Assembly (NCBI RefSeq): GCF_000177635.2
Contig: NC_014836.1
Location: 1,562,001-1,626,000, forward strand
Origin: Desulfurispirillum indicum S5
Lineage (GTDB): Bacteria > Chrysiogenota > Chrysiogenetes > Chrysiogenales > Chrysiogenaceae
Length of the DNA stretch: 64,000 bases
Direction: 5' to 3'
Notes under the pieces: generated by a model
The model's database searches: none
Told to the model about the DNA's origin: nothing
What the model saw: the letters and a program-made list of their open reading frames with translations, nothing else
Translations under genes and position numbers: made by a program
Shown: positions 11,860 through 60,850 of the stretch, in pieces
Layout: each line of letters starts with the position of its first letter
How positions within the stretch are numbered: position 1 is the first letter of the stretch

Positions 11860-11892
11860 CTTCCGCTCCTACCCACATACCCTGTAGGGAGA
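11860..11892 (+). promoter_or_regulatory. CTTCCG/CCACATA/TAGRG promoter element a
   Basis: CTTCCG (11860) - CCACATA (11873) - TAGGG (11885). Same 13- and 12-nt offsets as the other five copies. It precedes the coupling-protein operon by 38 nt. Confidence 0.65.
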
Positions 11893-11929
11893 TGATTATT
11901 CCCTGACCTCCATTCAAGCAGAGGCCTAC

Positions 11930-12595
11930 ATGTACGAAAAGGAGAATTTCTGGGAAGTGCTATACATATCCGAACGCATTCTGAGTGCTCACTTTAAGCG
12001 ATCAGTCTTCATTAACCCAGCCCCGCCCCATGATGTATTCATTTACAGCAAGGATAGAACTGTCTCTGTCCGCGATCAAATTCCATATTCCGTACTCAAA
12101 ACCATTCTCGCCTCAATCTCTCATCTCAATGAGTCCCGAATATTTACCAGAAGAATGACGCACTCCTACCGCCGCATCCGCATACTGCAGCGGTCACGGC
12201 AAATTCTACAGGCGAGAGTGCTGAGAGTTACTCTATCCAGGGATCTCATTCTGGAGCTCCCCGGAATCCACATAAAAGGCCTCTGCTCCTTTAAACACCA
12301 AACCCGCCTGGCAAAATCCCTCGACATTAATAGCTCGGTGCACGTCTACCCGGTAGCCGTTCGAGATGGTGTTGTTATGTGCTCAATGCAGCACCCGGTC
12401 ATCCCAGAAGCACTCTTACGTCAAAAACTCAACCAAGATCACAGCCACATTCAGTTTGAATGCACATACCGCTTACCAGGCATCAAAGCAGTCATAACCA
12501 CCAATCATAAAATCCCATGGCAAGCCATAAAAGCAACAGCCAAGGAGATCGGCGAGCAAATACTTATCAAACTGGATGGGCAACATGTTCAGTAA
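11930..12595 (+). CDS. Hypothetical protein, first gene of coupling-protein operon
   Basis: 221 residues, basic, soluble. No recognised domain. Features: an N-terminal FWEVLYISERILSAHFKRSV, an Arg-rich middle (SYRRIRILQRSRQILQARVLRVTL) and a beta-rich end. It overlaps the coupling-protein gene by 20 nt, so it is probably a transfer accessory or DNA-processing partner. Confidence 0.6.
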   Translation: MYEKENFWEVLYISERILSAHFKRSVFINPAPPHDVFIYSKDRTVSVRDQIPYSVLKTILASISHLNESRIFTRRMTHSYRRIRILQRSRQILQARVLRVTLSRDLILELPGIHIKGLCSFKHQTRLAKSLDINSSVHVYPVAVRDGVVMCSMQHPVIPEALLRQKLNQDHSHIQFECTYRLPGIKAVITTNHKIPWQAIKATAKEIGEQILIKLDGQHVQ

Positions 12596-13967
12596 ATTCC
12601 GAAAAGACAGACCACTCTATCTTGGTGATGGTGTTTCCCTTTCAAAGCAGCACAAGCCACTGCGTATTTCGATTGATCAGAAGCACCGTAGTGGCCACTT
12701 CTGGTGCTTTGGAACCACTCGCAGTGGAAAGACCCGCCTCATCGATGGCATGATTGAGCAGGATATTCGTGCCGGTAGGAACATTGGGTTCATTGATCCC
12801 AAAGGCGACATGGAGATCCTTGCAAAAATCATCCAGGTTGCCAGGGAAACTGGCAGGATGGATGACCTGATTATAATTGACCCATTCTTCCCGGATATCT
12901 CAGCCAGGCTCAACCCACTCAAGCACTGGTCTATCATCGAGGAGCTTGTTGGGCACACTGTGGCCGGTATCGAAGTGGGCCGTGAGCCGTTCTTTTTCAA
13001 CGTATCCTACGAACTCACCCTGGTTGTAGTTCAAGCGCTGACTCTCATTGCAGAGGCAGACAACACTAAAGCTCTATGGAATTTTGAATTCCTCAAAAAT
13101 CAGATATCCCGGCTTGACCTGACAGAACTTCATAACTCTGTAAGCCATCTCGACTCTGACGAGGCCCGCCAAATTGCCCGCGATATCCGGGCAATCCTTA
13201 GCAACCCACCAGACTACTACGGCAAAGTTGCCTCCAGTTTGCGCGTTGCCCTTACTGAGCTTTCCCAGGGTGCAGTTGGGTATATTCTCGGCCAGACAAC
13301 GGACGAGAACCGCATCCTTGACCGGCTATACAGTGGCAAAGGTGTGATCTTTGTGGTTCGCCTTGCCTCTATGATGACCAGGAAAGCCAGCTACACCCTC
13401 GGCAAAGTCATTATCTCAATGATCCAGGCGTATGTAGGCCGATTATTTCTTTCCGGCCAGAAACTCAATCCAGAACTGTGCCTCTACATCGATGAAGCTC
13501 ACAATGTGCTTTATCAAGGTATTGACGACCTATTCGCGAAGGCCGGCGGAGCCGGGTGCTGGGTACACGGATTCTGCCAGAGCTACAATCAGCTGGTAGC
13601 AGCCCTCAAAGATCGTTCCCTTGCTGACTCCATCATGGATAACATCAACACAAAAATGTTCCTCCGGGTTCCCGACCCAATCACCGCCAAGTATGGTCTG
13701 GAGCACTTTGGCAACATCAGGAAATTCCTGCCTATCCTCAGTAGTGACGGCCATTTCTCAATGCGCGAGGCAGAAGAGGCGCTTCTGCAACCCGATACCC
13801 TGCAGAAGCTGCAGCCGCGCCAGTTCTATATGACTACATACAGCGGCGCGTACAAAGGCATCACGCTGCCCTGCGAAGAGAGTTATGTGAAGCTTAAGTT
13901 CCCAGGGAGCGATGCCAGTGAATCCGTGCTCACCCATGACAACACAGATTCAAGGGGTGAAGGATGA
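12576..13967 (+). CDS. Type IV coupling protein (VirD4/TraD-like ATPase)
   Basis: 463 residues. Walker A GTTRSGKTR at about 45-53, GFIDPKGDMEIL downstream, Walker B LCLYIDEAHNVLY at about 300, and FCQSYNQL later: the layout of VirD4/TraG/TraD hexameric ATPases that hand the relaxosome to the secretion channel. It lacks the N-terminal transmembrane helices of F TraD (about 717 aa); the following small membrane-protein genes may supply the anchor. ATGs at 12576 and 12585 are both possible. Overlaps the next gene by 4 nt. Confidence 0.85.
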   Translation: MGNMFSKFRKDRPLYLGDGVSLSKQHKPLRISIDQKHRSGHFWCFGTTRSGKTRLIDGMIEQDIRAGRNIGFIDPKGDMEILAKIIQVARETGRMDDLIIIDPFFPDISARLNPLKHWSIIEELVGHTVAGIEVGREPFFFNVSYELTLVVVQALTLIAEADNTKALWNFEFLKNQISRLDLTELHNSVSHLDSDEARQIARDIRAILSNPPDYYGKVASSLRVALTELSQGAVGYILGQTTDENRILDRLYSGKGVIFVVRLASMMTRKASYTLGKVIISMIQAYVGRLFLSGQKLNPELCLYIDEAHNVLYQGIDDLFAKAGGAGCWVHGFCQSYNQLVAALKDRSLADSIMDNINTKMFLRVPDPITAKYGLEHFGNIRKFLPILSSDGHFSMREAEEALLQPDTLQKLQPRQFYMTTYSGAYKGITLPCEESYVKLKFPGSDASESVLTHDNTDSRGEG

Positions 13968-14743
13968 TCGCGGCACGTAGAACTCTGGCAATTCTAGGCG
14001 TCATTCTTTACTCCAACACCGTTATCTACCTGATGACCATCGGTAAACTGAGCCCTCGGTATGCGCTACAGATAACAGGCGTCGTCGTGATCATTTGCTT
14101 AATCATCAGGACCCGATATTTTCATAAAAACCCTGAAATCATCATCAATATCGCTGACATCTGCAGCATCTGGAAAGAAGAAACGCCCCTGCCAGTCCAA
14201 ACAGATCCGGTACCCATCCAATCGGCCCCACCTGAACATATACCTGGTCCACCTGAAGAACCCATGAGCAATGCAGCTCCCCCAGAAGAAAATACCCAAA
14301 ATCTCATCCCTGAAAAGTTTAACGAAGCGGATATGGGATGGTTCAAGGCCCATGAGTACCTGACGCACCTGTCATTCCAGGTGAATACATCAGAGAAGCC
14401 CATCGCTTTTGATTTTGGAGGCTATGTCTTTGTTTCGAGCGGTGTACTGAGAAAGGTCCTGGAGAGCTATGCCATCACAAAGGAGCGCTGGAGAGAGGAA
14501 TATACGAACCAGACACAACACATTAACGATTTCCTTACTTCAACACTCCAGAAACTACTGGCATTCGATGGTTGTGGCGAGTTCGTGATTCACATGCCAG
14601 GTAAAGCCAAAAAGAACAGCCTGTACGCCATTCCTCTGCACCACTTTGATCAATCACATTTCGGCAGCACGCAGCTGAAAATAGAGATCATGAAGATTGA
14701 ACCGTTTGTTGAACAACAAAACGACTTGGAGGAGGAATCATGA
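13964..14743 (+). CDS. Membrane-anchored protein of coupling operon
   Basis: 259 residues. Two N-terminal membrane helices (TLAILGVILYSNTVIYLMTI and IVVIICLIIRT-like segments), a Pro/Glu-rich linker (about 75-115) and a soluble C-terminal domain. ATG overlaps the coupling-protein stop (ATGA). No relaxase motif. It could be the missing membrane part of the coupling protein, an inference from position and topology. Confidence 0.65.
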   Translation: MIAARRTLAILGVILYSNTVIYLMTIGKLSPRYALQITGVVVIICLIIRTRYFHKNPEIIINIADICSIWKEETPLPVQTDPVPIQSAPPEHIPGPPEEPMSNAAPPEENTQNLIPEKFNEADMGWFKAHEYLTHLSFQVNTSEKPIAFDFGGYVFVSSGVLRKVLESYAITKERWREEYTNQTQHINDFLTSTLQKLLAFDGCGEFVIHMPGKAKKNSLYAIPLHHFDQSHFGSTQLKIEIMKIEPFVEQQNDLEEES

Positions 14744-14967
14744 ACCCACTTGATTACGTCAACGAGGAAGAATATGGCCAAATGTGGGCCATAATTTTTG
14801 AAAATCTCTTCTCGGGCAACATTGCCCGCGCCTTAGCGCTCATGTGCTTGCTTGCAAGCATGTGGTTCTGGATCAGGAGGAAGCAACCCGCACTTGGCTT
14901 CATATTCGTGATCTTTACAGTGATATTTGCCTTCGGGCAGCCATTGGTGGAGGTATGGGCATCATGA
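14740..14967 (+). CDS. Small two-helix membrane protein
   Basis: 75 residues with two hydrophobic helices (ALALMCLLASMWFWI and LGFIFVIFTVIFAFGQPL) around a short basic loop (RRKQP). Starts by ATGA overlap with the upstream gene, with GGAGGAGG upstream. Probably part of a membrane complex with its neighbours. Not recognised. Confidence 0.65.
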   Translation: MNPLDYVNEEEYGQMWAIIFENLFSGNIARALALMCLLASMWFWIRRKQPALGFIFVIFTVIFAFGQPLVEVWAS

Positions 14968-16059: not shown

Positions 16060-16086
16060 TCACTATTAGGAAAACTCACAGAAACC

Positions 16087-17989: not shown

Positions 17990-18457
17990 CTACTGATTGC
18001 GGCCTTTATGGACACTGATAAGAAGCCTGATGCTGAATTTGCGCTTATGATGGGTGATGAAATACCGCTGAACAGCTTCCCAGGAAAGCCCCTGACTCCT
18101 TAATTCTTCAATCACAGGCAGGTGTTTTTGTAAAAACACACGGGAAGGGTGAGTGGGACGATTGCGAGGGCTCCTCTTCTTACTCGTCGAGGATCTGATA
18201 AACCCGGCACCAGGGCGGTATGTTTTGCTGACCTTCAGCAAAGCTGCCGTCCTGGTCTGCTCCTTCGTAAGGTTTTGCGCCTGGCACTCATTGATAAATT
18301 CGCGATCAGCCGCGAGCAGCCGAGACTCATGGAGTAGTTGAGCCTGATCCTGCCAGCCCATCCGATAGAATCGATGAAGCACATCAGGAAAGCGACTGGC
18401 GCTCAGTCCAGTCGCTTTAGCCAAAGACTCATCAAGATTTATCCGAGAGGTACTCAT
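17990..18457 (-). CDS. DNA-binding-like protein, paralogue 2
   Basis: 155 residues from the ATG at 18457 (GGAG 8 nt upstream). C-terminal LPVIEELRSQGLSWEAVQRYFITHHKRKFSIRLLISV has the I-x-x-L-R-x-x-G-x-S-W-x-x-V pattern of a helix-turn-helix common in plasmid accessory proteins. Region ESLAKATGLSASRFPDVLHRF...ESRLLAADREF aligns with paralogue 1. Basic middle (SSTSKKRSPRNRP). A relaxosome or partition role is possible; function unknown. Confidence 0.6.
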   Translation of the reverse strand: MSTSRINLDESLAKATGLSASRFPDVLHRFYRMGWQDQAQLLHESRLLAADREFINECQAQNLTKEQTRTAALLKVSKTYRPGAGFIRSSTSKKRSPRNRPTHPSRVFLQKHLPVIEELRSQGLSWEAVQRYFITHHKRKFSIRLLISVHKGRNQ

Positions 18458-18950
18458 TATAGACTCCAATCAGGTAAGGGCCTGACACGGTCAGCCCGGT
18501 TTTGGACTTCAATCGCTTCGCTACTTCCCTCCACGAGCAACCACTTTCCCTCAAGTCAGTGATATACGCAAAATGCTGAATGATCTTTGCGTACTTGAAT
18601 TTTTGCTTAGACCTCCAGTTTTCTGCCTGTATGTAGCTCATCACTTCGTTTCGCCTGACTTCAAGAGGGTGCGCAGGCCCTTTGCGCGAAAGCGCAAACT
18701 TGGCCTTAGCGACCTCAGCCTTGAACTCTTTAATAGCTAGCAGTAGGCTTGCCATGGCAGCCTCTGGGCCAGAGGCGTCAAGCTTACCGGCGTTTGCAAC
18801 AAAGCCTGGCTCTGCCAGGAGACGGCTTTGTCTGCACAATATATCGGTAAGTGCCTCTGAATGTTGTGTCTTGAAGTAGTGCATGGCCTTAGACCACTGC
18901 CTACGATGGACACCACATAGCTTCTCGATGGTCTTTTCTTGCGGTTCCAT
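18432..18950 (-). CDS. DNA-binding-like protein, paralogue 1
   Basis: 172 residues from the ATG at 18950 behind GGAGCAAGAGAC. EKTIEKLCGVHRRQWSKAMHYF...CRQSRLLAEPGF aligns with paralogue 2, and the C-terminus ITDLRESGCSWREVAKRLKS has the same L-R-x-x-G-x-S-W-x-x-V element. Overlaps paralogue 2 by 26 nt. Tandem duplication followed by divergence; function unknown. Confidence 0.6.
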   Translation of the reverse strand: MEPQEKTIEKLCGVHRRQWSKAMHYFKTQHSEALTDILCRQSRLLAEPGFVANAGKLDASGPEAAMASLLLAIKEFKAEVAKAKFALSRKGPAHPLEVRRNEVMSYIQAENWRSKQKFKYAKIIQHFAYITDLRESGCSWREVAKRLKSKTGLTVSGPYLIGVYNEYLSDKS

Positions 18951-18972
18951 GTCTCTTGCTCCGGTGATTTTT

Positions 18973-19023
18973 CGGTTGCCATTGAAGGTCAGTTGCGAAG
19001 CAACTGGACGGAATTGGCAACCG
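18973..19023 (-). promoter_or_regulatory. Nested hairpin ahead of the paralogue operon
   Basis: Outer arms CGGTTGCCA/TGGCAACCG (9 bp, perfect) and an inner hairpin AGTTGC-gaa-GCAACT, 22 nt upstream of the paralogue 1 start. Fits an operator or leader structure; its position could also suit a relaxosome site. Confidence 0.5.
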
Positions 19024-19163
19024 CCATATCGCAAAATACTGATTATTTTACAAATAACAAAATCATTGCATGATTACTATAAAAATTATTTATTTGTAAA
19101 AAATATTCGTATTGCAGCGATCTCTTTGCTTTTTCTCTTATGAAGCGCATCGGCGCGGATTTT

Positions 19164-19856: not shown

Positions 19857-20165
19857 TACGCATTATTCTTGCCCTTAGCTGGGTCTCGCCTGCACTCGCA
19901 GGTTTTCAAGATTATCTTTCACTTTACTCCGCGATTCTATGTACTCCATAGCCGGACGACTGCGATTCCATGCCCTGCATGGCCAGAAAGTGAACCAAAG
20001 ATATTCTTCTCCCTGAGTAAGTGAAACTCGCTTACTGTCATTTGACGCCAGGTTGCCGTTTTTACTGCAAAGAAGCGTCATTATCCCTATTGGCATATTT
20101 GCAATCCGCGGTTCTATGTACTCCATAGCCGGATGGCTGCGGTTCCATGTGCTGCATGGCCAGTC
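19857..20165 (+). ncRNA. Candidate structured RNA, copy B
   Basis: CTTGCCCTTAGCTGGGTCTC (19868), CCTGC-actc-GCAGG hairpin, double-hairpin unit 1 (19928-19986), a spacer with AGTAAG/CTTACT (copy A has AGCA/TGCT), and unit 2 (20105-20163). Unit spacing 177 nt against 176 in copy A. Primary sequence between the units differs while stems persist. Confidence 0.55.
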
Positions 20166-20610: not shown

Positions 20611-20643
20611 CTTCCCCTGTGATCCACATAGCCTATAGAGCTA
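20611..20643 (+). promoter_or_regulatory. CTTCCG/CCACATA/TAGRG promoter element e
   Basis: CTTCCC (20611) - CCACATA (20624) - TAGAG (20636); same offsets as the others, one mismatch in the first block. It precedes the recombinase. Confidence 0.6.
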
Positions 20644-20660: not shown

Positions 20661-21587
20661 ATGCATGGCAGCGTGCAAAAACAAGTGAAATCCCTTTTCC
20701 GGACGGTTGATTCCGTCGGGACATCCAAACACCAGGCAAAAGAAGTCGCACGATTTCACGGGGCAAAAGGATGGCATGAAGTAGGGAGACAAATTGGAAT
20801 CCACTCACACCGCACTCGGGATGAATACACCCGCGTCTGGGGTGAGCTTGGCCAGTATATGCGTTCTGAATTCAAGATTCGCGATATGCAGCGGATCACC
20901 CCAGAGCACGTACAGTCTTTTCTTGAAGGTAAAATAGCGGCGGGAGTGACCTATAACTCATTCACCACATACAGCTCCGCTCTTCAGAAGCTGGAAGTGG
21001 CTCTCGATAGGTTGGGCGAACAATACGGGAACCATGATCCCGGCACCTACGGTTTCAGCAACACTATAGCCCTGATGCGAGCAGAAGCCAGAGGAGTGCT
21101 TGAGCGAGCAACTGAAACCAGAGCCTACGAGGCGCCAGGTAAAATCATTGAAAGCCTCAGCGGCACCTTCCAGCTTGCAGCCTCAATGCAGCTGGAGTCC
21201 GGAGCGCGGATCAGTGAAATCTCAACGATTCACGCCTCCCAACTGAACCCAGATCGTAACTCCGTCACCGTCCAGGGCAAGGGTGGCAAAATCCGCGAGC
21301 TGCAGCTCTCTGAAAACACTTACATGAAGCTTGAAGAGGCCATAGGGGCTGCACACAAGGAAACATTCAGCCTTTCAGGCAGTTTTTACCGCAGTGCCCT
21401 CCAGGTTGCCGCAAAGCACAGCAACCAGAAATACACCGGCAGCCATGGGCTCCGGTGGAATTTTGCCCAAAACCGAATGGCCGAACTTACAGGAGGCCAG
21501 GGCAAACCCTATGAACAGGCTCTAGTCCAGGTATCCCAGGAAATGGGCCATGAACGCGGCTCGATCACAGAGCATTACCTACAATGA
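20661..21587 (+). CDS. Tyrosine site-specific recombinase
   Basis: 308 residues from the ATG at 20661 (AGGAGGTC upstream). SAM-like N-terminal domain to about residue 110; catalytic domain with Arg in LESGARISEIST, Lys in VQGKGGKIREL, H-x-x-R in GSHGLRWNFAQ, His in EMGHERGSITEHY, and Tyr nucleophile in EHYLQ three residues from the end. The very short tail after Tyr is unusual but occurs. Likely resolves plasmid multimers or handles integration; a dif-like site lies just upstream. Confidence 0.85.
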   Translation: MHGSVQKQVKSLFRTVDSVGTSKHQAKEVARFHGAKGWHEVGRQIGIHSHRTRDEYTRVWGELGQYMRSEFKIRDMQRITPEHVQSFLEGKIAAGVTYNSFTTYSSALQKLEVALDRLGEQYGNHDPGTYGFSNTIALMRAEARGVLERATETRAYEAPGKIIESLSGTFQLAASMQLESGARISEISTIHASQLNPDRNSVTVQGKGGKIRELQLSENTYMKLEEAIGAAHKETFSLSGSFYRSALQVAAKHSNQKYTGSHGLRWNFAQNRMAELTGGQGKPYEQALVQVSQEMGHERGSITEHYLQ

Positions 21588-21790
21588 AGACTTTAACATA
21601 TCATCAGCACCAGATACCGCTTCATCACTTTGATTTGTCATTAAATCCGGGAATCTCACAACACTGTCGAAGTAGTGGGGATATTCTGCAGGAATACATG
21701 ATCTCGCCAGACAGTAAAGCAGGAAATAACAAAACAGATTCCACCAATCCGTATTCAGGTCGAAGCCAGACCGCCAAAAAAACCAAAAAA

Positions 21791-21822
21791 CTTCCGGCCT
21801 CACCCACATACCCCTTAGAGGG
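21791..21822 (+). promoter_or_regulatory. CTTCCG/CCACATA/TAGRG promoter element b
   Basis: CTTCCG (21791) - CCACATA (21804) - TAGAG (21816), with CCCC-ttaga-GGGG able to form a small hairpin. Thirty-seven nt ahead of parM. Confidence 0.65.
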
Positions 21823-21858
21823 GAATTTCTCCTCACAGCAAATTCCTGGAGGACAATT

Positions 21859-22815
21859 ATGAAGTGCATTGGCCAAGACATCGGATTTGGAGATGTGAAA
21901 ACTGTTATTGAAGATCAGATGCTGAAGACGCCAACAGCGATCGCCTATGAAGGCTTTGGCGCAAGAGTTGATCTGGATGGCCCGACATCCATCGAATTTG
22001 AAGGACAGAACTACCTGGTCGGCGAGGATGCCATTGAAAGTGGCCAGCCTGTTTTTGAGACAACCAGTATTGATTTCCTGCTCCGCTACGCACCTCTCTT
22101 GGCTTATCACGCCATAAAAGCTGCAGGCTTTGACTTTGACGAGAAAATTCACCTTGGCGTAGGCCTCCCCGTCTCCTATTACACCCCAGAGAATAAGGCA
22201 GCCCTGGCTAATCGCCTGAACACTGCCGTGGTCAACAAGGAGCGATTGCAGTTGAACACACTGGTATACCCCCAGGGTGTTGGTGCATTCTACGACTATC
22301 GACTGACTACCAATGAGAAAATTTCAAGCGCTCTCATCGTTGACATTGGCTACAACACTGTTGATGTCGTTCACATATCCAAAGGACGCCCAAACAAATC
22401 CGGCAGCGGTATGTTTGACCGGGCCGGAATCTCTGTGATTATTCGTGAGCTTTCACGCTTTATTTCAGACCGGCACCAGATTCAACTTTCCAACCAGGTG
22501 ATCAAGGAGATTTTTATCTCTAAAAAGCTTTCCCTGTACGGCAAGGAAATCAGTCTGGAAGAACCAATTCGGCAAATTGTCGAGCGCTATACCACCCACC
22601 TGCTGCATAGCCTGGAGGATGGGTACCACCAACAACTTGCCCAGGCTCAAAAAATCGTCATTACCGGTGGCGTCGCCCACTACCTGCAGCACTACATTCC
22701 CACAAAAATGCAGGAAAGCATTGTCATTCCAGAATCACCTGAATTTGCGAATGCGCGTGGCTTCTACAAGGTACTGATAGCATCCATTTCCGATTCGGAG
22801 AATGTCGATGCGTAA
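21859..22815 (+). CDS. parM: ParM/StbA-like actin-type partition ATPase
   Basis: 318 residues. Actin-fold motifs: phosphate 1 GQDIGFGDVKTVI (about 5-15), phosphate 2 LIVDIGYNTVDVV (about 160), adenosine motif KIVITGGVAHYL (about 270). Ends PEFANARGFYKVL, typical of ParM/Alp7A-like plasmid proteins. Polymerises to push sister plasmids apart, with ParR bound at a centromere. GGAGG precedes the ATG. It overlaps the next start by 8 nt, giving a parMR pair. Confidence 0.85.
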   Translation: MKCIGQDIGFGDVKTVIEDQMLKTPTAIAYEGFGARVDLDGPTSIEFEGQNYLVGEDAIESGQPVFETTSIDFLLRYAPLLAYHAIKAAGFDFDEKIHLGVGLPVSYYTPENKAALANRLNTAVVNKERLQLNTLVYPQGVGAFYDYRLTTNEKISSALIVDIGYNTVDVVHISKGRPNKSGSGMFDRAGISVIIRELSRFISDRHQIQLSNQVIKEIFISKKLSLYGKEISLEEPIRQIVERYTTHLLHSLEDGYHQQLAQAQKIVITGGVAHYLQHYIPTKMQESIVIPESPEFANARGFYKVLIASISDSENVDA

Positions 22816-23098
22816 GCAATACACCTTCGACCCTGACGTGCACACTCTTATCACTTCGGCTCCGTACCACGCACGGAGCCTGATAGTGAATTGCCTGATC
22901 CGCTACGGCTCTCAAACAGCAGAAGGGCAAGCAATACTCAAAGCAGTTGGAGCAAAAATTGATGCAGTGGGCTCATCAGAGAAGTTGGTCACCACTGACG
23001 ATACACTATCGAAAGACAATCTCCCTGCTCTCGGTAAAGGGCAGCAAAAGGAGTCTCTCTCACGACCACCAGATGATTTCCTCGGCAATTTTGACTGA
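22808..23098 (+). CDS. parR: ParR-like partner of ParM
   Basis: 96 residues from the ATG at 22808 (CGGAG 7 nt upstream; the ATG at 22802 is too close). YTFDPDVHTLITSAPYHARSLIVNCLIRYGSQTAEG suits a ribbon-helix-helix fold; the second half is disordered and acidic with a conserved-looking DDFLGNFD end that may bind ParM. The identity rests on position and pattern; the centromere is not evident downstream. Confidence 0.7.
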   Translation: MRKQYTFDPDVHTLITSAPYHARSLIVNCLIRYGSQTAEGQAILKAVGAKIDAVGSSEKLVTTDDTLSKDNLPALGKGQQKESLSRPPDDFLGNFD

Positions 23099-27990: not shown

Positions 27991-28019
27991 AGGCCACCTT
28001 CGGTGGCCTTTTTCTTTTT
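27991..28019 (+). terminator. Rho-independent terminator
   Basis: AGGCCACC-ttc-GGTGGCCT then TTTTCTTTTT; closes the parMR to 27965 block. Confidence 0.85.
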
Positions 28020-28085
28020 CCAGCGAAAACTTCCCCCTCCCCTCGCCCACTCTCCTGAGTCTTCTATCCCGGTTTTCCCAGAAAA

Positions 28086-28129
28086 CTTCCGCCCTGATCC
28101 ACATGCCCTATAGAGGGGCATATCTCCCC
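28086..28129 (+). promoter_or_regulatory. CTTCCG/CCACATA/TAGRG promoter element c
   Basis: CTTCCG (28086) - CCACATG (28099) - TAGAG (28111). It lies 24 nt upstream of the first gene of the tra operon and reads as -35 CTTCCG, 17-bp spacer, -10 TATAGA. Confidence 0.65.
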
Positions 28130-28152
28130 TCCAAAAAATCTTGGAGGAACCA

Positions 28153-33435: not shown

Positions 33436-35988
33436 ATGGTAGCCCGCAAACTCCTTGACCGCTTTGATAAGTTGCTCGGCACTACCTATGGTGGTGGTGT
33501 CACCTACGGAGATATCCAGGACATGGTCTCACGCCACCCGTTTGGCCCATTCCTGCCCTACATCTCCCACGACAGCGCTACCCATACCTGGTACAACAGC
33601 GACGACAGCGTGGGCTTCCTCTTTGAGTGCAGCCCACTCTATTTTGCTGGTGATGATAGCTATACCCAGATGGAGGCTCTTTTCAAAAAAGAGCTGCCAA
33701 ACAACACCGTCATACAGTTTATTTTGGCAGCTGATGACTATATCGATCCCATGCTTGATCGCTACCTGGCCACCACCAGCGTAGAGAATCCGGTTCTGCA
33801 GAACATTGCCAAGATGCAGGCCGATTATCTGCGTCAGTCAAAGCGTGGCCTGCCAAGTGTCAGCTCCCTGCCAGTGCGCCACTTCAGAAGCCCGGTGAGC
33901 ATTAAGTTCCCAGAGAAAAAAGTCTCTGCCCTCAAGCTTCGCCAGCTCTACAAAGAGACCAGGGAGATTCTTGCTGGCGCTGGCATGAACCCTCAGCCCA
34001 TGGGGCCTCAGAAACTCCTGCACTGGCTTCGCCGGGTATTTAACTCCAACAAGGATATCCATAGCCCCGCCCTTGGCAGCTACAACGACGCCATTCCTAT
34101 GAACAAGCAAATCGTGCTTGCTGAGAGTGAAATCGACGTTGAAGGCCGGTACATCAAGATTGGAAGCAAGAATCACGACGGGCAATTTGAGGGCAGCTAC
34201 TTCCGGGGAATCTCGATTAAAAGCCCTGCCCCAAGCATTGACTCACTGGAAATGCATGGGGTTGTGGGGGCAATCACGGGCGGCGGCTACTTTGCCGACA
34301 CCCAGCAGATCCCCTGTAACTTTATCCTCAGCGTCAATATTTTCTTCCACAAAAACATCAATGCTGCCCTTGGCCGCAAGGCCACTATGACCGTGCGCCA
34401 GCAGGCCACAGAGCAGGACGCAAAAACCCTCAGCAAGCGCCAGAACGAGTTCACCACTATCAAGGACGACCTGGCCCACAACCGAACTTACGTGCGCATT
34501 ATGCCCACTATGTGGATATATGACCGGGACCTGGAAAAGGTGGATAATGCCGTATCCACCGCCAAAAACCTGTGGGAGGCCAGCGGCTTCTTAATGCAGG
34601 AAGAGTCGCATATCCAGACTCCCACCTTCCTGGCCACCCTGCCCTTTGGCCTGATTCCCGATGAGTCCATCATCAAAAATATGGTGCGCGACTTCCAGTG
34701 CAACACGCAGCAAGCGCTGCCCCTGCTCCCGGTGCAGGCGGACTTTGCGGCGTTCTCCAAGAATCCGGTCATTCCCTTTATTGGCCGCAAAGGACAGCTG
34801 CAGGGAATTGATATCTTCGATCCACGGGCAAAATCCTACAACGGTCTGGTGGCCGCCGACACCGGCACCGGTAAATCGGTACTCATGAACTACATCATCA
34901 TGAACTACCTGCGCACCGGGGCCAAGGTAACTGGAATTGATATCGGGGATAGCTACCGCAACACCTGCAATATGGTTGGCGGCCAATACATCGATTTTGA
35001 AAAGCAGATCTCCATGAACCCCTTTGGTTTCGTCAGCGTTGGCGGCGATGCCGAGGACCAGAACGAGAACCTGCAGGTTGTGGTGCCACTAATCGCACAG
35101 ATGGCATTCGCCCACGACAGCGTGATCGATAATGAATACTGGAGCCTCCTTGACATGGCTGTGAAGTGGTCATGGGAAACTTATGGCCCTGACGCTGATG
35201 TGAACAGTGTCTGGCAATACTGCAAAGAGTTCAAACAACGATACAGTGGCGAACTGCAGCACGCGGACAAGATCATGGCCGAGAAAGCGGAGCTACTGAG
35301 TATCTTCCTGGAAAAATGGACCACGACAAAAAATGGTGTCTACGGCGGCTGGGTCAATGGGCGCAGCGAGCTCAACATCAAAAACAACAATTTCACCATC
35401 TTCGAGCTTCAGCGAATCAAGGGTATTCCTGATCTTTTCAGCGTCATGAGCCTGATTCTCATTAACGCCATCACGATGGATCTTTACCTCTCCGACCGTT
35501 CCCGCAAGAAAATTGTCCTGCTCGAAGAAGCAGGTCAATTCCTGCGGGAATCCCCGCTCCTGCTGCAGGTCGTCAACGAAATGTACCGGCGCATACGCAA
35601 GTATGGCGGCGGGTCATTCGTGGTAACCCAATCGCTGCTTGACACCCTCAGCTGGGGCGACACCGGGCGAACCATTATGGACAACGCCCGCTGGAAGTTC
35701 CTGCTTGAGTCAGACTCCTTCCCCAAAGCCAAGGACGAAAAACTCCTCGATGTCAGCGACTTCGTGCTGGAGCTCATGAAGTCCACCAAATCAAGAAAGC
35801 CTGACTATAGCGAGATCTTCGCCATGACCCCTATCGGCATGGGCCACATGCGCCTGAGCCTGCCACGGTGGGTTTTCTACGCAGTCTCCACCGATGGCCC
35901 GGTGGTCTCCCAGATCGAAAAACTCAGAAAGGAGGGACTATCCTATGACCAGGCTATTAGCTGGATGGTTGATAATTTTGAGTTTTAG
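33436..35988 (+). CDS. traC: TraC, VirB4-like assembly ATPase
   Basis: 850 residues. Walker A ADTGTGKSVLM at about 474, Walker B KIVLLEEAGQFL at about 690, with N-terminal TraC domain (GFLFECSPLYFAGDDSYTQM). Powers pilus assembly at the inner face of the membrane. Length agrees with F TraC (876). Confidence 0.9.
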   Translation: MVARKLLDRFDKLLGTTYGGGVTYGDIQDMVSRHPFGPFLPYISHDSATHTWYNSDDSVGFLFECSPLYFAGDDSYTQMEALFKKELPNNTVIQFILAADDYIDPMLDRYLATTSVENPVLQNIAKMQADYLRQSKRGLPSVSSLPVRHFRSPVSIKFPEKKVSALKLRQLYKETREILAGAGMNPQPMGPQKLLHWLRRVFNSNKDIHSPALGSYNDAIPMNKQIVLAESEIDVEGRYIKIGSKNHDGQFEGSYFRGISIKSPAPSIDSLEMHGVVGAITGGGYFADTQQIPCNFILSVNIFFHKNINAALGRKATMTVRQQATEQDAKTLSKRQNEFTTIKDDLAHNRTYVRIMPTMWIYDRDLEKVDNAVSTAKNLWEASGFLMQEESHIQTPTFLATLPFGLIPDESIIKNMVRDFQCNTQQALPLLPVQADFAAFSKNPVIPFIGRKGQLQGIDIFDPRAKSYNGLVAADTGTGKSVLMNYIIMNYLRTGAKVTGIDIGDSYRNTCNMVGGQYIDFEKQISMNPFGFVSVGGDAEDQNENLQVVVPLIAQMAFAHDSVIDNEYWSLLDMAVKWSWETYGPDADVNSVWQYCKEFKQRYSGELQHADKIMAEKAELLSIFLEKWTTTKNGVYGGWVNGRSELNIKNNNFTIFELQRIKGIPDLFSVMSLILINAITMDLYLSDRSRKKIVLLEEAGQFLRESPLLLQVVNEMYRRIRKYGGGSFVVTQSLLDTLSWGDTGRTIMDNARWKFLLESDSFPKAKDEKLLDVSDFVLELMKSTKSRKPDYSEIFAMTPIGMGHMRLSLPRWVFYAVSTDGPVVSQIEKLRKEGLSYDQAISWMVDNFEF

Positions 35989-38257
35989 TGCTGTGGCCCT
36001 GGCCAGCCCCAAGGAACAACTCCGGGAAATGTTCAGTAATAGCCCTCAATCTGATGGCGCACTCAGCGAGCAGCTTCGGGCGATCTATACTGATGACATG
36101 AGCCCTGAAGAAGCTATAGCGATTGGCCGCAGCCAGGAGAACACCCGGTTCAACAAGTCGCGGATGGACCGAAACTTCTTCCGGCCTCTCACCGGTGGTG
36201 GTGAAATGTGGACCCTTGATGGCCAGACCGCATTCGATGTCAGTGGTGTTGCTTGCCCCGGTGCCAATGACTATCTGCAAGTCACCGTGGTGCCCTCGCA
36301 AACCAGCGGTGACATTGCTCAGTTGATGATCCGGCAGGACACTAACTTTGACGGCATCCAGAACTACTTCTGGCAAGCACCCCACCCTATCAGCGGTGTA
36401 TGTGCCAATGGTTATATCAGCTGTAATCCCGGTACATGGCAAAACTGCACACCCTATCAATGGCTCATCACCAATGATAACCGGGTATCAAGTACTGAGG
36501 CCCCATCAGACGACATGTTTGGCTGCTTCTGTGTCAACAACAGCTGTGGCGTGAACCTGGCGTGGATAAACCTCAACAATATCCTGACAACTCTTGGCAC
36601 TGGTATCAGCAGTGCCCTGCAGGAGTATAACGCTCACCTGGTTATTACCGGCGCTCATTTCCAAAACTCGAACGAAATTGTCTACCAGGCGCAGGACAGT
36701 GCCAACTGTTCTGATGTGCAGGGTGGCTCTGGCGTGCAGTATTTTGATAAGCGTGATGATAGTGCCCTGGTAGCAGCGAGTTCAGAGGCATATATCAACC
36801 CGGAAAGCGATACTATTGTGGGAAAGATTGTGAGTGAGTCTCGCGAGAACCTTGAATATGCCATCTGTCCTATTCGCCGCAACCTTACTGTTCAAGCACA
36901 GCAAAACACCTGGCACAACAACCGCCACTGCCCCGAAGCCGACATTGAGAGCTGGGCTGCCGATGCCCTGGCCTATGAATGCAATGTCCAGCGATCACGA
37001 AATGCCGATATCGACCACACCAGAACACTATTCTACAGTAGCAGGCATGACGTGATGGCAGGTTTTCAGGTGCGGGTCAATCCAGATACAGAGGACCTGG
37101 AGATGCGTTGGCAGCACCTTAATTCATCAGGCACCTCTGAACATGGCTCAAGTCCCTGGTGCAACCTGGCTCCATCCGCTCCTTACCAGCAATGTCGCCT
37201 GGACACTGGCCACAGTGGCAGCAGCACCGGTAGTACCCATCGTCTACGCCTTGGCTTTGATGTTGAGGAAGGGAAGATTCGTGTTCGTACCCGCTCAACC
37301 ACCCACTGGCTACGCGACTCTACCCACCTTCACGCTGGGGCCGTCTATTCACCCGGTGGAAACGAACGGACTGGTAACTGGGTCAGCTTTGTTGAGGGCA
37401 GTGGAGGGAAGTCAGTAATATACCTCTCGCAAGTATATGACAACTGTTCCGAAGGCTGGTATGACGGCTGTTATATGGAACGCACAGTAGAATATTATAT
37501 TGAGGTCTCCGATGACCTCTCCCGTATCCGCATTGGCGGAGACGGCCTTCAGACTTCCCCATGGCTCGATATCACTGCAGGCTGCAGTGTAGAGTGTCAA
37601 AAGGATGTGTTTTCCGAGTCCATCTCTGATGGGTGTGAGCCTTTCCGTGATAACCCGTCCTGTGTACAGGTGGGTGAAACAGTTGATGGAGTGCGCACCA
37701 TCAACAACTCGCACCATACTGGTCTTTCACCAATCCCCTCCACAGTTACCTTCAACGGTGTGTTTGGTACCTACGCCTATACACGGCCATTCTGGGAAAT
37801 AACCCAAGAATACGCCTGTGAAACTGACGCAGAAGGGTTTGACTTTAATGACTCCCTGGAGCGCTACGCAATCGTCAGTGATTCGGTTGACCTGCAGGGC
37901 GGCAGGGCAACATTTACAGATCGTCGCAGCACTACCAGCGGATTTGTGACGGATAATTATTCGATTCGCATGCATGATTTTGGTCCATTAGACCCGGAGC
38001 TGGTCTGTAAAACGCGCAAATGGGTTGAAGATCCCAAGGCTACGGCCCAGGTCAATGAAACCGAGGTGCGCGGTGATATTGGCGTTTGGAAATTCAACTA
38101 CTACGTCTGCATTGATGGGTTATGCCCTGCCGGTGAGGGTGAAGAAATCGTACAGGAGTGCATCGAGGCAGATGACTTTGCAGAAGCTGCTATGGCCATG
38201 GAGACCCTTGACTCCTTGCGTAAGGACATTATGTGCAGCTCAGGAGTACGACAATGA
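35945..38257 (+). CDS. Large Cys-rich secreted protein, TraN-like 1
   Basis: 770 residues from the ATG at 35945 (AGGAGGG upstream). Signal peptide MTRLLAGWLIILSFSAVALA. FGCFCVNNSCGVNLAW and many paired Cys (CSVECQKDVF, CYMERTVEYY) resemble the TraN mating-pair stabilisation family, which sits in the outer membrane and contacts the recipient. The central 37.0-37.6 kb part (SSSTGSTHRLRLGFDVEEG) may be a beta-sandwich insert. Exact TraN identity uncertain. Confidence 0.65.
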   Translation: MTRLLAGWLIILSFSAVALASPKEQLREMFSNSPQSDGALSEQLRAIYTDDMSPEEAIAIGRSQENTRFNKSRMDRNFFRPLTGGGEMWTLDGQTAFDVSGVACPGANDYLQVTVVPSQTSGDIAQLMIRQDTNFDGIQNYFWQAPHPISGVCANGYISCNPGTWQNCTPYQWLITNDNRVSSTEAPSDDMFGCFCVNNSCGVNLAWINLNNILTTLGTGISSALQEYNAHLVITGAHFQNSNEIVYQAQDSANCSDVQGGSGVQYFDKRDDSALVAASSEAYINPESDTIVGKIVSESRENLEYAICPIRRNLTVQAQQNTWHNNRHCPEADIESWAADALAYECNVQRSRNADIDHTRTLFYSSRHDVMAGFQVRVNPDTEDLEMRWQHLNSSGTSEHGSSPWCNLAPSAPYQQCRLDTGHSGSSTGSTHRLRLGFDVEEGKIRVRTRSTTHWLRDSTHLHAGAVYSPGGNERTGNWVSFVEGSGGKSVIYLSQVYDNCSEGWYDGCYMERTVEYYIEVSDDLSRIRIGGDGLQTSPWLDITAGCSVECQKDVFSESISDGCEPFRDNPSCVQVGETVDGVRTINNSHHTGLSPIPSTVTFNGVFGTYAYTRPFWEITQEYACETDAEGFDFNDSLERYAIVSDSVDLQGGRATFTDRRSTTSGFVTDNYSIRMHDFGPLDPELVCKTRKWVEDPKATAQVNETEVRGDIGVWKFNYYVCIDGLCPAGEGEEIVQECIEADDFAEAAMAMETLDSLRKDIMCSSGVRQ

Positions 38258-40911: not shown

Positions 40912-41612
40912 AGAATATTCTTATCCTTGTATTGACTGCCGTACTCCTGAGCATTTCCCCGGTCAGCGCCGGGGAGAGCCAGGCCGAAAACATTGAAGCT
41001 GTGGCCGAGCGAATCAACAACCTCTATTTCTCAGACGAGTGGCAAAGTTATCTGCAAAACGAACAAGATCGGCTTAAAATCGAAGTTTTCGGTGAAATCA
41101 TCGAGGATTATATTCCCCAGGAATTCCCGGGCAGCCGGCCAGATACTCCACTGTCCGCCGGGGATGACGAACCCTTCTCTCCAGCACCCGGGGAAACCGT
41201 CCTTCCCGATGGGGCCCGAGTGCTGGTGTTTATCTCAAGCTCCATGCCCGATCACCTGCTGCGCACATACCTGGAACAAGCCGACGGCCAGCCGCAGATA
41301 CAGTTTGTCATGCGTGGATTCATCGACGGTATCACCAAGATCATGCCCACGGTGGAGTTCATTGCCAGGCTGCAACTGAAGGACCAAAACTGCGAGCCAT
41401 TCAAAGAAGAGTGCGCGATGCACACCAATGATGTCAGCGTAGATCCTGAGCTCTTCAGTCAATTCGATATCACCCAGGTGCCAGCCATGGTCTACTTGCC
41501 CCACGTGGGTACTCACCAAGGGCTATTGTCTGAACTGCCCCACGCAGTGCTCCATGGTGACCCTCCACTCTCATGGTTCATCGCCCGTGCCCAGGAGTAC
41601 GATTATGAGTAA
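40908..41612 (+). CDS. trbC: TrbC, pilus assembly thioredoxin-fold protein
   Basis: 234 residues with signal peptide. C-domain: VLVFISSSMPDHLLRTYLEQ, QFVMRGFIDGITKI, VDPELFSQFDITQVPAMVY: the TrbC signature (F-I-S-x-S-M-P, cis-Pro V-P). Periplasmic, required for pilus assembly. Ends inside the start of the diguanylate cyclase. Confidence 0.9.
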   Translation: MKNILILVLTAVLLSISPVSAGESQAENIEAVAERINNLYFSDEWQSYLQNEQDRLKIEVFGEIIEDYIPQEFPGSRPDTPLSAGDDEPFSPAPGETVLPDGARVLVFISSSMPDHLLRTYLEQADGQPQIQFVMRGFIDGITKIMPTVEFIARLQLKDQNCEPFKEECAMHTNDVSVDPELFSQFDITQVPAMVYLPHVGTHQGLLSELPHAVLHGDPPLSWFIARAQEYDYE

Positions 41613-42459
41613 CCTGTACTACCGCCTGCAAAAGCACCTTCCCGCCATAGAGCTTTCCAGTGATGGCATTATTTTGCGGGCAACTAACGCATTCTGTGAG
41701 TTATCCAGATACGATGAGGCCACCCTTCTTGGTAAGCATGCTGGTATTCTTCGTCGCATATCAAAGCATGTCCACCACCGACTCTGGCCAAACTTACCCC
41801 AGCAATGGAATGGACCACTGCGCATCTACACGCCAGCTGGCACCCCGGTAAACGTGTCGGTCAACGTCTTCTCACACGATAATCTCTTCTATGCCTGGTT
41901 CCAGGACCTCTCCAAGTGCCAGGGCAACTGCCGGGAGCTTCTGCGCTTGAGGCAGGCCTATCACACGACCCGCCGTGAAGCCACTATGGACGCGCTGACC
42001 AGGCTGGCCAACCGCCGAAAAATCAACGAAGTGCTGGAGCGCGAAACCATCTACAGCAATATCGGCCACACTCCCCTTTCCCTGATCCTGCTCGATATCG
42101 ACCACTTCAAGCACGTCAACGACACCTACGGCCATGGCGTGGGAGATAAGGTCTTGATTGCCCTGGCCGGACTCCTGCGCCACAACACCCGTGACAACGA
42201 TGTGGTGGGCCGCTGGGGCGGCGAGGAATTCATCATCATCTTACCCGGCTGCCCTATAGGTACGGCAACGGAAATAGCCGAGCGTATCCGCACTGCTATT
42301 GCAGAGTTTCCATTTGCAGATATTACCCACCCGGTGACCGCCAGCATTGGCGTCACCGGGTATATCTCCGGCGAATCCATCGAGGACCTGATGGGACGGG
42401 TAGATCATGGCATGTACTCAGGCAAAACCGGTGGCCGCAACCAAGTGGTGAGGTGCTGA
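41605..42459 (+). CDS. PAS-GGDEF diguanylate cyclase
   Basis: 284 residues, no membrane segment. N-terminal PAS-like sensor (AIELSSDGIILRATNAFCEL...LLGKHAGIL), then a GGDEF domain with ILLDIDHFKHVNDTYGH and active GRWGGEEF (about 201-208). An inhibitory site RDND lies exactly five residues before GGEEF. Makes c-di-GMP. Translated by overlap with trbC; the HD-GYP gene follows 1 nt later. All motifs look functional. Confidence 0.9.
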   Translation: MSNLYYRLQKHLPAIELSSDGIILRATNAFCELSRYDEATLLGKHAGILRRISKHVHHRLWPNLPQQWNGPLRIYTPAGTPVNVSVNVFSHDNLFYAWFQDLSKCQGNCRELLRLRQAYHTTRREATMDALTRLANRRKINEVLERETIYSNIGHTPLSLILLDIDHFKHVNDTYGHGVGDKVLIALAGLLRHNTRDNDVVGRWGGEEFIIILPGCPIGTATEIAERIRTAIAEFPFADITHPVTASIGVTGYISGESIEDLMGRVDHGMYSGKTGGRNQVVRC

Positions 42460-42460
42460 G

Positions 42461-43756
42461 ATGCAACTGGCGCGATATACGCCTGAGCAACTGGAGGTAG
42501 GTATGTGGATTGAAAACTACATACCCAAAGGCCTCGAGTGTGCTCCAGTGGGCCCGACTGGTTTTTTACTCACAGAGCAGCATATCAGGCGAATCAAAGA
42601 GGAAGGGCGAGACTGGGTATGGATACACAAGAACCGTGGGCTGCTGCGTATTCGAAAGCACAGCCCGAGTGCTTCGATGCCCGAAAAAACAACCCCACCA
42701 CCTACCCAGGCTCCGGCAAACAGCACCGCTATGAACACTGACCAGCTGCTGGATTATCTCGATAATCTGCAGCCTGGCCACGATATTGAGCCAAAGGAGG
42801 ACGTGCAAAAAGAGCTGTTCCGGGCAGCGGATATTATCAAGATCGCAAATGAGCAGATGCAGTATATCCTCACACACATCTCCAAGGGCGGTACCCTTGA
42901 TCATAGCCAAATGCGGACCCTGACCGAAATCTCCGATCAGATTACCCGCAGCATCTACGCTAATCATGATGCGCTCCTGAGCGTGTGCCTGATCAAGCAA
43001 GTGGATAACACCACATACCAGCACAGCATCAATGTGGCCGTTCTCCTGGCCCTGGCCGGGCGGCGAATGGGCTATGAGACAAAGCAACTTGAAGCCCTGG
43101 CCCTGGGCGGCCTGCTGCACGATACAGGCAAGAGTAAGGTCCCGATCAATATCCTCAATAAGCCTGGCCGCCTCACCAATTCCGAGTATGCAATCATCAA
43201 AAGCCACGTCCAAGCGGGCACCCACTTGATCGCCCACCATCACACCCTCAGTAAAATCACCCGCGATGCGATTACCCAGCATCACGAGCGATTTGACGGT
43301 AGTGGCTACCCACTGCGACTTAAAGGTGCCGAGATCAGCGAGCACGGCAGACTGACAGCTATTGCCGATGTGTTTGACGCTATCATCTCAAAGCGGCCAT
43401 ACCACCAGCCTCTTAATCCCATCTCCGGGCTCAAGCGCATACTCTCCTGGTCCGAGCACCACTTCTGCACCTATACCGCCCACCAGTTCATCCGGGCTAT
43501 CGGCCTCTACCCTATTGGCACACTACTGCGGCTTGAAAGTGGCCTCCTGGGAGTTGTGATCGAGCAGAATCCACGCTCACTGCTACTGCCAGTGCTGCGC
43601 ATAGTGTTCAACGCTCGGAAGAGCACTGCCGTCAATTCACCCTACGTGCTCGACCTGGAAAAACACCCACAACAGATTCTCGGGTATGAGAATCCTGAGA
43701 AATGGGGCATTAATCCGATGCTGCACCTTATTGGAGGAAATTGTGACTCAAAATAA
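42461..43756 (+). CDS. HD-GYP c-di-GMP phosphodiesterase
   Basis: 431 residues. N-terminal DUF3391-like domain (MQLARYTPEQLEVGMWIENY), Pro-rich linker at about 70-90, then HD-GYP: LLHDTGKSKVP (HD at about 220), HHERFDGSGYP (about 273-283), and ADVFDAIISKRPYH. Intact HD and GYP motifs predict hydrolysis of c-di-GMP. Paired with the upstream cyclase inside the tra operon. Confidence 0.9.
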   Translation: MQLARYTPEQLEVGMWIENYIPKGLECAPVGPTGFLLTEQHIRRIKEEGRDWVWIHKNRGLLRIRKHSPSASMPEKTTPPPTQAPANSTAMNTDQLLDYLDNLQPGHDIEPKEDVQKELFRAADIIKIANEQMQYILTHISKGGTLDHSQMRTLTEISDQITRSIYANHDALLSVCLIKQVDNTTYQHSINVAVLLALAGRRMGYETKQLEALALGGLLHDTGKSKVPINILNKPGRLTNSEYAIIKSHVQAGTHLIAHHHTLSKITRDAITQHHERFDGSGYPLRLKGAEISEHGRLTAIADVFDAIISKRPYHQPLNPISGLKRILSWSEHHFCTYTAHQFIRAIGLYPIGTLLRLESGLLGVVIEQNPRSLLLPVLRIVFNARKSTAVNSPYVLDLEKHPQQILGYENPEKWGINPMLHLIGGNCDSK

Positions 43757-44075: not shown

Positions 44076-44108
44076 CCGGCCAGAATTCATCTGGCCGGTT
44101 TTTTTTAT
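44076..44108 (+). terminator. Rho-independent terminator
   Basis: CCGGCCAGA-attca-TCTGGCCGG then eight T. Ends the first tra operon. Confidence 0.9.
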
Positions 44109-44143
44109 TCAGTAGATTTCCTTCCACTCGATTTCCCCAAAAA

Positions 44144-44175
44144 CTTCCGCCCTATCCCACATACCCCTTAGAGGG
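44144..44175 (+). promoter_or_regulatory. CTTCCG/CCACATA/TAGRG promoter element d
   Basis: CTTCCG (44144) - CCACATA (44157) - TAGAG (44169), 38 nt ahead of ssb. It starts the second tra operon (ssb to traG). Confidence 0.65.
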
Positions 44176-44212
44176 GAATGTTTCCCCCTGCATAAACCCA
44201 CGGGAGGATTTT

Positions 44213-57316: not shown

Positions 57317-57317
57317 C

Positions 57318-57347: not shown

Positions 57348-57352
57348 GGGGG

Positions 57353-60131: not shown

Positions 60132-60144
60132 TCTCACTCCAAGC

Positions 60145-60185
60145 AACCATATATCACATAGATAGATATTATGTGATATATGGTT
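60145..60185. promoter_or_regulatory. 41-bp palindrome upstream of methylase (operator)
   Basis: AACCATATATCACATA-gatagatat-TATGTGATATATGGTT: perfect 16-bp arms. Position 14 nt ahead of the methylase start suggests an operator, maybe for the protein's own helix-turn-helix tail. Confidence 0.6.
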
Positions 60186-60299
60186 AGGAGGCAACAAAAC
60201 AACCAGCTTTTCCGTTGAGAAAATGAAATTTGTGAATGAACGCCAAGGTAGAGATCAACCAGATATTCCGGTTACCCCAAATAATCATCGCATTGACAT

Positions 60300-60523
60300 C
60301 CTCCCCGGCCAGAAGGCCAGAGATTCCCCGGCACCTGCCGGCCGCCCACAACACAGAGAGATCCCCCGGTATCCACCGGCCGCCCACGGCCCGAGAGAGC
60401 ACCCCCGGTACCCGCCGACAACCCACGGCGCCGAGGAGATCACCTGGTGCCTGCCAGCTGCCCGCAGCCCGGAGAGATATCCTCGGCATTCGTCCCGGTG
60501 CCCAGCCCTGGAGAAACCTTAGT
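60300..60523. repeat. GC-rich mosaic repeats, second region
   Basis: Units such as GAGAGATCCCCCGGTA and GAGGAGATCACCTGGT-CC-GCCAGCTGCCCGC, closely matching 17585 and 17750. No gene. Confidence 0.55.
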
Positions 60524-60739
60524 TCACCTAACCTTACTCGCAATATATTGCAGTTCTTTTTGCACCTCGCGCAGTACTTCCACAAGGCCTGCATGATCTA
60601 CCTCAGAGATCGAAGAAATTTCGCCACCGAGCGCAAAAGCGACAAGTCCAATCTTTGACCCCAACTTCCCCAATAAGTCCTGGATTTCTAAAACCTCAAT
60701 CCTAGCCTCAACTCGATTAAGATACTCATTCTGTGACAT
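60524..60739 (-). CDS. Lone copy of the BRO-N partner family
   Basis: 71 residues, TAAGGAG before the ATG. IEVLEIQDLLGKLGSKIGLVAFALGGEISSISEVDHAGLVEVLREVQKELQYIA aligns with the 3794 and 56854 proteins. No BRO-N gene follows; the repeats begin instead. A stranded or independent regulator. Confidence 0.55.
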   Translation of the reverse strand: MSQNEYLNRVEARIEVLEIQDLLGKLGSKIGLVAFALGGEISSISEVDHAGLVEVLREVQKELQYIASKVR

Positions 60740-60820
60740 TTACAACTCCTTAATAATTATTAAGGAGTAAATCGTGCGAAACTAGATAAAACTGAAAATT
60801 ACAACTAATTTTCCAGGAAA

Positions 60821-60850
60821 CTTCCGGTGGCTCCCATTTTAATCATAGAG
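60821..60850 (+). promoter_or_regulatory. CTTCCG/CCAxxxx/TAGRG promoter element f
   Basis: CTTCCG (60821) - CCATTTT (60834) - TAGAG (60846): same offsets; the middle block is less conserved. Thirty-six nt ahead of the resolvase. Confidence 0.5.

Follow-up and report, generated by a model that had tools for sequence, protein, structure and literature searches.

A start signal of about 33 bp heads nearly all transfer and maintenance operons of an integrated conjugative element in the chromosome of Desulfurispirillum indicum S5. The element was analysed in a window of 64,000 nucleotides, which corresponds to bases 1,562,001–1,626,000 of the single-contig, 2,928,377-bp genome; positions are given as positions in this window, with negative numbers lying to its left. 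That the signal is the promoter of the transfer and maintenance operons is well supported, and we judge the case evenly balanced that it drives an element-wide transfer regulon as a promoter read by the element's own sigma-70-like protein. A domain search of the open reading frames (ORFs) identifies the window as an F-type (MPF_F) conjugative element with a coupling protein, TraL, TraE, TraK, TraB, TraV, TraC, TraN, TraU, TraF, TraH, TraG, and TrbC, the TraL match falling 0.2 bits under its cut-off, and further genes encode Ssb, RdgC, a ParM-like protein, a tyrosine recombinase, and a resolvase. A gene for a TrfA-like Rep protein, a replication initiator (-995 to -138, minus strand), adjoins the sigma-like ORF just left of the window, which gives this chromosomal element the look of an integrated plasmid. 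Plasmids, islands, and conjugation go unmentioned in the genome paper of D. indicum S5 (PMC3368425).

The signal, CTTCCG-N7-CCACATA-N5-TAGAG, has six matches at up to three mismatches in the window, all on the plus strand and all at the positions reported in the initial annotation, and shuffled sequences average 0.07 matches. These six are also the only copies in the whole 2.93-Mb genome at this threshold (a reversed-pattern control gives two). Five copies are strong, with zero or one mismatch in 18 positions, and it is in these five that the fixed offsets between the three blocks, first claimed for all six, hold strictly. The copy at 60821 departs from them with three mismatches, all in the central block (CCCATTT for CCACATA), and keeps CTTCCG and TAGAG. 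A weight matrix built from the five strong sites gives these sites scores of 40–54 and the copy at 60821 a score of 10.8, and nothing else on either strand of 184 kb exceeds 4.9; when each strong copy is left out in turn, it ranks within the group of copies that made up the matrix or directly after it. No equally good site inside a coding region, which would have spoken against a promoter, was found in the genome pattern scan or in the 184-kb matrix scan. Identity between the strong copies is 0.92–0.94 within the three blocks and 0.25–0.28 beyond about 10 nt upstream and about 60 nt downstream, and these unrelated flanks indicate that the motif was kept by selection and not by segmental duplication. 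The copies do stand directly before operons, and the distance to the start codon, previously put at 25–60 nt, is corrected here: five copies have 36–40 nt between the end of TAGAG and ATG, and the copy at the integrase has 20 nt. Given that its gap to ATG (36 nt) matches that of the other copies, the site at 60821 is probably a degenerate member of the set. None of 50 further genomes of the phylum has the exact motif, nor do the TraU-related genomic loci or the viral contigs that were scanned.

The first copy (11856–11905, core 11860–11889, with a stem-loop TAGGGAG...TTCCCTG at 11885–11905) follows a terminator-like sequence at 11582–11597 and precedes a 221-aa ORF with no assigned function (11930–12595). 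The coupling protein (12576–13967), originally named as the gene behind this copy, does belong to the operon, as its second gene. The second copy (20611–20640), located before the tyrosine recombinase (ATG at 20661, end at 21587), is weaker, with a leave-one-out score of 16.4 and no clear stem-loop. The third (21787–21834, core 21791–21820, stem-loop GAGGGGAATTTCTCCTC) precedes the ParM-like gene (21859–22815) and an ORF at 22802–23098. The fourth (28082–28131, core 28086–28115, stem-loop GAGGGGCATATCTCCCCTC) heads tra operon 1, which encodes an OmpA-like protein, DsbC, TraL/E/K/B/V/C, TraN, TrbC, and GGDEF and HD proteins, and the fifth (44140–44189, core 44144–44173, stem-loop AGGGGAATGTTTCCCCCT) heads tra operon 2, which encodes Ssb, RdgC, an S26 peptidase, TraU, TraF, TraH, and TraG. 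The degenerate sixth copy (60818–60863, core 60821–60850, stem-loop GAGGTAGATGTACTTC) lies before the resolvase (60887, the ATG, to 61525).

The local context of the two tra operons argues that the motif is a promoter. Strong terminators at 27991–28009 and 44076–44098 sit directly upstream of the motif copies of tra operons 1 and 2, and the motif is thus the only promoter candidate for both. The gap from terminator to motif is only approximately 45–75 nt, no sigma-70-type promoter occurs between either terminator and its operon, and no listed sigma-70-type site, that is, no pair of TTGACA- and TATAAT-like hexamers, falls on the motifs. The initial annotation's description of a promoter-like signal is therefore borne out: the motif is specific to the element, leads operons, is directional, has terminators upstream, and has counterparts of the same type on two plasmids of other bacteria.

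These counterparts emerged when each related element was scanned de novo for sequences recurring upstream of its genes. Among related F-type (MPF_F) conjugative plasmids, pSD of Geobacter anodireducens, pPRO1 of Pelobacter propionicus, the Desulfosarcina sp. BuS5 plasmid NZ_CP087953, and the Campylobacter conjugative plasmid pCIG1485E each proved to carry an element-wide motif of their own before homologous operons. pPRO1 contains GCACCAAATAATCTAAGTCCTTGCCAGATATTA, or a close variant of it, five times, with GGTAGAGGG or GGTAGAGAG behind three of these copies, and pSD has a close relative in four copies. On both plasmids they precede OmpA-DsbC-TraL, TraD, and S26/TraH or TraG operons, which correspond to operons headed by the motif in the window, so that placement before OmpA-DsbC-TraL, before TraD, and before TraH/TraG or ssb/TraU is common to all three elements. 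The pSD and pPRO1 promoters resemble that of the window in the order AAWCT ... CCANATA ... TAGAGGG, in the 24–25 nt from CT to TAGAG, in a downstream stem-loop at several copies, and in the presence of a sigma-like gene on the plasmid. They differ from it in that the middle spacing is shifted by 1–2 nt, the first block has other bases, a longer conserved stretch GCACCAAA lies upstream, and the sigma-like proteins have diverged from that of the window beyond the reach of BLAST. A pattern built from pSD and pPRO1 only (AAWCT N9-12 CCARATA N5-7 TAGAGGG, at most three mismatches) matches nothing in 184 kb except the window sites at 11860, 21791, 28086, and 44144, and it gives 0–3 matches on shuffled sequence; this cross-plasmid match is strong but not blind, since the blocks were chosen after both motifs had been viewed. 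Judged by sequence, the pSD, pPRO1, and window motifs are recognisably the same promoter type. As far as we searched, the element-wide tra promoters of pSD and pPRO1 have not been described.

The pPRO1 promoter and the pPRO1 sigma gene each match only pPRO1 and pSD among 72,556 plasmids, and the promoter pattern is absent from 13 genomes belonging to the family of Geobacter sp. OR-1. Of the 74 occurrences of the word TAGAGGG in related loci, 11 are upstream of genes, an enrichment over six other words, which reach 2–9%. A pair of Desulfosudis sequences (CTTGACCG...TATAGAG) provided only two marginal copies and was not used.

At many sites a stem-loop can form that starts at or beside the G of TAGAG, and its arms differ from site to site (GAGGGG/CCCCTC, AGGGA/TCCCT, GAGGGA/TCCCTC, ATGAGG/CCTCAT, and GAGAGC/GCTCTC). 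In a post hoc covariation test, a left arm matches the right arm of its own site better than it matches right arms from elsewhere (p = 0.0014 for 15 sites in three elements; p = 0.008 for the window alone). Arms that vary while pairing is kept point to a function in RNA rather than to an operator. Furthermore, the OmpA start codon of pPRO1 and pSD lies only about 10–13 nt past TAGAG. Together with the position of the stem-loop, such short leaders fit a start at the junction of TA and GAG better than a start 6–7 nt past a -10 element TAGA, without proving it, and the plain reading first given to the motif, a -35 box, a 17-bp spacer, and a -10 box YWTAGA, is not supported. Thus, on the arrangement of these sequences, transcription may start near the TA and GAG junction, and TAGAG could be something other than an ordinary -10 element.

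The same stem-loop raises the possibility that the promoter lies further upstream and that the motif acts within the mRNA, as a 5' stem-loop or in the control of stability or translation. The covarying arms and the near-constant distance to ATG would suit such a leader element, but the short interval between terminator and motif at both tra operons leaves little room and holds no promoter-like site, CTTCCG and CCACATA are conserved in sequence and not in pairing, and no Rfam family matches. We consider this explanation improbable. Two further candidates were rejected: the dyad CCCC-TTAGA-GGGG as an operator, the centre of which is out of register between copies, and a promoter for a T7-like polymerase, suggested by resemblance to TATA-GGGAGA, as no such polymerase was present among the ORFs scanned with Pfam. 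A 787-aa ORF at 35894–38257 has no Pfam match and resembles tra-region proteins of relatives.

On the BuS5 plasmid, a repeated promoter precedes tra operon 1, the traN-traU operon, the DsbC operon, and the gene adjoining ssb. As in the window, the plasmid carries a sigma-like gene, annotated as sigma-70 family, and the tra operon 1 copy has 25 nt from TTGACG to TAGAGGG; unlike in the window, TTGACG is a normal -35 element and the spacer of most copies is taken up by an AT-rich palindrome, which suggests repressor control. A long palindrome, AAAATTTTACAGGGTTTCTATTATATTTAATAGAAACCCTGTAAAATTTT, is also found before a tra-region gene of this plasmid, where it overlaps the repeated promoter. In pCIG1485E, the palindrome TTTTAGNATAANATATTCTAAAA precedes at least five operons and is present at a divergent helix-turn-helix (HTH) gene; it is probably a plasmid-wide repressor operator. 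By analogy, the repeats in the window could be sites of a plasmid-wide repressor over ordinary promoters, following a KorA-like logic, and XRE/cI-like genes are indeed present in these elements. We find this unlikely, given that the blocks in the window are non-palindromic and always oriented towards the gene, that no sigma-70-type promoter overlaps them, and that the stem-loop, the only symmetry, has arms that vary between sites.

The candidate factor for the motif is a 266-aa sigma-70-like ORF on the minus strand, which covers positions 1–659 of the window and extends in full from -141 to 659, between an HTH-like ORF and the TrfA-like Rep gene. The HTH-like ORF (82 aa, 669–917, minus strand) precedes it and has domain matches under the cut-offs. 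An XRE/cI-like regulator (1007–1471, plus strand; HTH_3, E = 2e-13) is divergent from the HTH, sigma-like, and Rep genes, and could possibly control the sigma-like gene from upstream. The top two model matches of the sigma-like ORF are both sigma models, and control ORFs match none; BLAST of the protein against plasmids gave no match. BuS5, pSD, pPRO1, and the metagenomic elements MM_PC and FI88 each encode a sigma-70-like protein of about 190–215 aa, in every case on the plasmid or contig that carries traU. Matches of these related-element proteins to the sigma-70/ECF (extracytoplasmic function) model range from E = 1.5e-10 to 1.3e-3 (FI88, 1.5e-10; MM_PC, 1e-9; pSD, 9e-4), and the pPRO1 protein, which has no model match itself, is 48% identical to that of pSD.

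A hidden Markov model (HMM) was built from these five proteins, with the window ORF left out of it. Leave-one-out versions recover each of the five members (E = 1e-8 to 6e-24), and in D. indicum the full model finds first a host factor (E = 4.5e-8), which we read as FliA-like, at the same place as one over the sigma cut-off in the host scan. The window ORF ranks directly after it, also in every leave-one-out version (E = 0.015; leave-one-out, 0.0027–0.35), aligned over regions 2–4. On these alignments the ORF at -141 to 659 appears to be a weak but consistent member of the sigma-like set, and its assignment as a sigma factor is probable. The earlier proposal of control by a plasmid-encoded sigma factor therefore gains indirect support from the HMM ranking; with the sigma-70/ECF model TIGR02937, the ORF scores 14.1 bits, well short of the cut-off of 42.9.

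That shortfall is one of several results that weigh against a sigma factor encoded by the element as the driver of a shared promoter class. In hhalign, the window ORF aligns only over a 30-residue region-4-like stretch, at 1.4% probability, and its single-sequence fold has a pLDDT (predicted local distance difference test score) of 43, which is unusable. MM_PC and FI88 have clear sigma-like genes, but no repeated upstream motif was detected in them. Both the choice of blocks for the cross-plasmid pattern and the covariation test followed inspection of the data, and the latter is non-significant for pSD and pPRO1 alone (p = 0.11). Finally, pSD and pPRO1 share with the promoter not only the sigma gene but also other regulators, a cI-like repressor and an NtrC-type response regulator, so the co-occurrence of promoter and sigma gene is suggestive only. 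The 115-kb FI88 contig has several nearly identical tra-region stretches about 80–84 kb apart, which stem either from two related elements or from a duplication introduced by the assembly.

Alternatively, the host itself could supply an alternative sigma factor that reads the promoter. Six host sigma-70-family proteins score over the cut-off, and an integrated element could borrow one. We regard this as very improbable, because the rest of the 2.93-Mb genome has no further copy at up to three mismatches and the related promoters are found in hosts of another phylum and, as far as searched, only on such plasmids.

We therefore return to control by the element's own sigma-70-like protein. RNA polymerase with a non-housekeeping factor, most likely the product of the ORF at -141 to 659, would recognise three blocks, namely an A-tract with CTTCCG, CCACATA, and CCCYTTAGAG. 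Transcription would begin at or just past the junction of TA and GAG, the 5' end of the mRNA would fold into a short stem-loop, and the transfer, partition, integration, and ssb operons would be switched on together; the XRE regulator, a neighbour of the sigma-like gene, could plausibly act as the switch upstream. The motif with its placement and specificity, the occurrence of this promoter type on related plasmids, and the sigma-like genes of those plasmids are shown directly, and we infer the link from the sigma-like protein to the motif, the start site, and the XRE switch.

Despite a complete F-type type IV secretion system (T4SS), no relaxase was recognised among the subset of window ORFs scanned with Pfam, and BuS5, pSD, and pPRO1 likewise have no typed relaxase in PLSDB, where they are typed as non-mobilizable. 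The element could possibly carry an unknown relaxase family. Two ORFs at 17990–19034 (minus strand) have a C-terminal motif (GLSWR.../GCSWR...) in common with a 157-aa ORF adjoining the MM_PC sigma gene and are candidate relaxosome or DNA-binding proteins. Non-coding repeat units (GATTCTATGyACTCCATAGCCGGA..GCGrTTCCATG) form two clusters of two units each, at 7860–8100 and 19925–20165, 12 kb apart and on the same strand. A search for attachment repeats found only an interspersed repeat, apparently unrelated, with exact stretches of 29 and 43–47 bp at -2543 to -2446, approximately 81325–81423, and approximately 92030–92128, around the element; at least two of these three places are apparently chromosomal. 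Within tra operon 1, the GGDEF and HD genes (cyclic di-GMP) occupy 41554–43756, and GGDEF, HD, or EAL genes also occur among the tra genes of BuS5, pPRO1, and pCIG1485E.

The closest known parallels are AcaCD and SetCD of the IncA/C plasmids and the SXT/R391 integrative and conjugative elements, which are class II activators of the FlhDC type; their box overlaps the -35 region of sigma-70 promoters that have a poor -10 and no conserved -35 (PMC4207636, PMC4542580). As in the model proposed here, one element-encoded master regulator acts through a repeated motif in promoter position before F-type T4SS operons and mobility genes. The motif of the window differs, however, in sequence and in spanning the whole conserved core promoter, and its candidate regulator is sigma-like. 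The parallel nonetheless suggests that an activator of the element, bound at CTTCCG and/or CCACATA, might recruit sigma-70 polymerase to -35 and -10 sequences that are poor by themselves. The regulon logic would be the same as in IncA/C and SXT, the spacer block is strongly conserved besides the -35- and -10-like blocks, and YWTAGA is a poor match to TATAAT. Yet the genome has no FlhC homologue (PF05280, E ≤ 1; the E. coli control matched), and no non-structural regulator is detectably common to the window, pSD, pPRO1, and BuS5. We thus hold activator dependence to be a doubtful alternative, if the most serious one, and because FlhC is lacking and the core promoter itself is conserved, the element is not a member of the AcaCD/SetCD type.

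Plasmid-encoded sigma factors are rare according to a paper on a Campylobacter plasmid, which names SigN of pBS32 (PMC9032879). As that paper's passage on it has it, SigN of Bacillus subtilis is similar in being a sigma factor encoded on a plasmid, and differs in causing cell death after DNA damage rather than controlling conjugation, and in belonging to a Gram-positive plasmid. In the open-access literature searched, we found no description of a plasmid-encoded sigma factor as a regulator of conjugation. We tentatively propose, with rather less than even confidence, that a family of conjugative elements in Chrysiogenota, Desulfobacteria, and Desulfuromonadia relies on a fast-evolving sigma factor of its own as a master switch, that this factor and its core promoter diverge together, and that the transcripts carry 5'-terminal stem-loops. 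If so, transfer would be independent of the promoter grammar of the host, and the transfer genes could be turned on together in distant hosts; the motif type also offers a handle for recognising the regulons of poorly known plasmids of anaerobes. In SXT and IncA/C elements, the master regulators known for F-type conjugation are activators that bring in the sigma-70 of the host, and a plasmid-borne sigma factor with a promoter class of its own would insulate the transfer genes from the host by another route.

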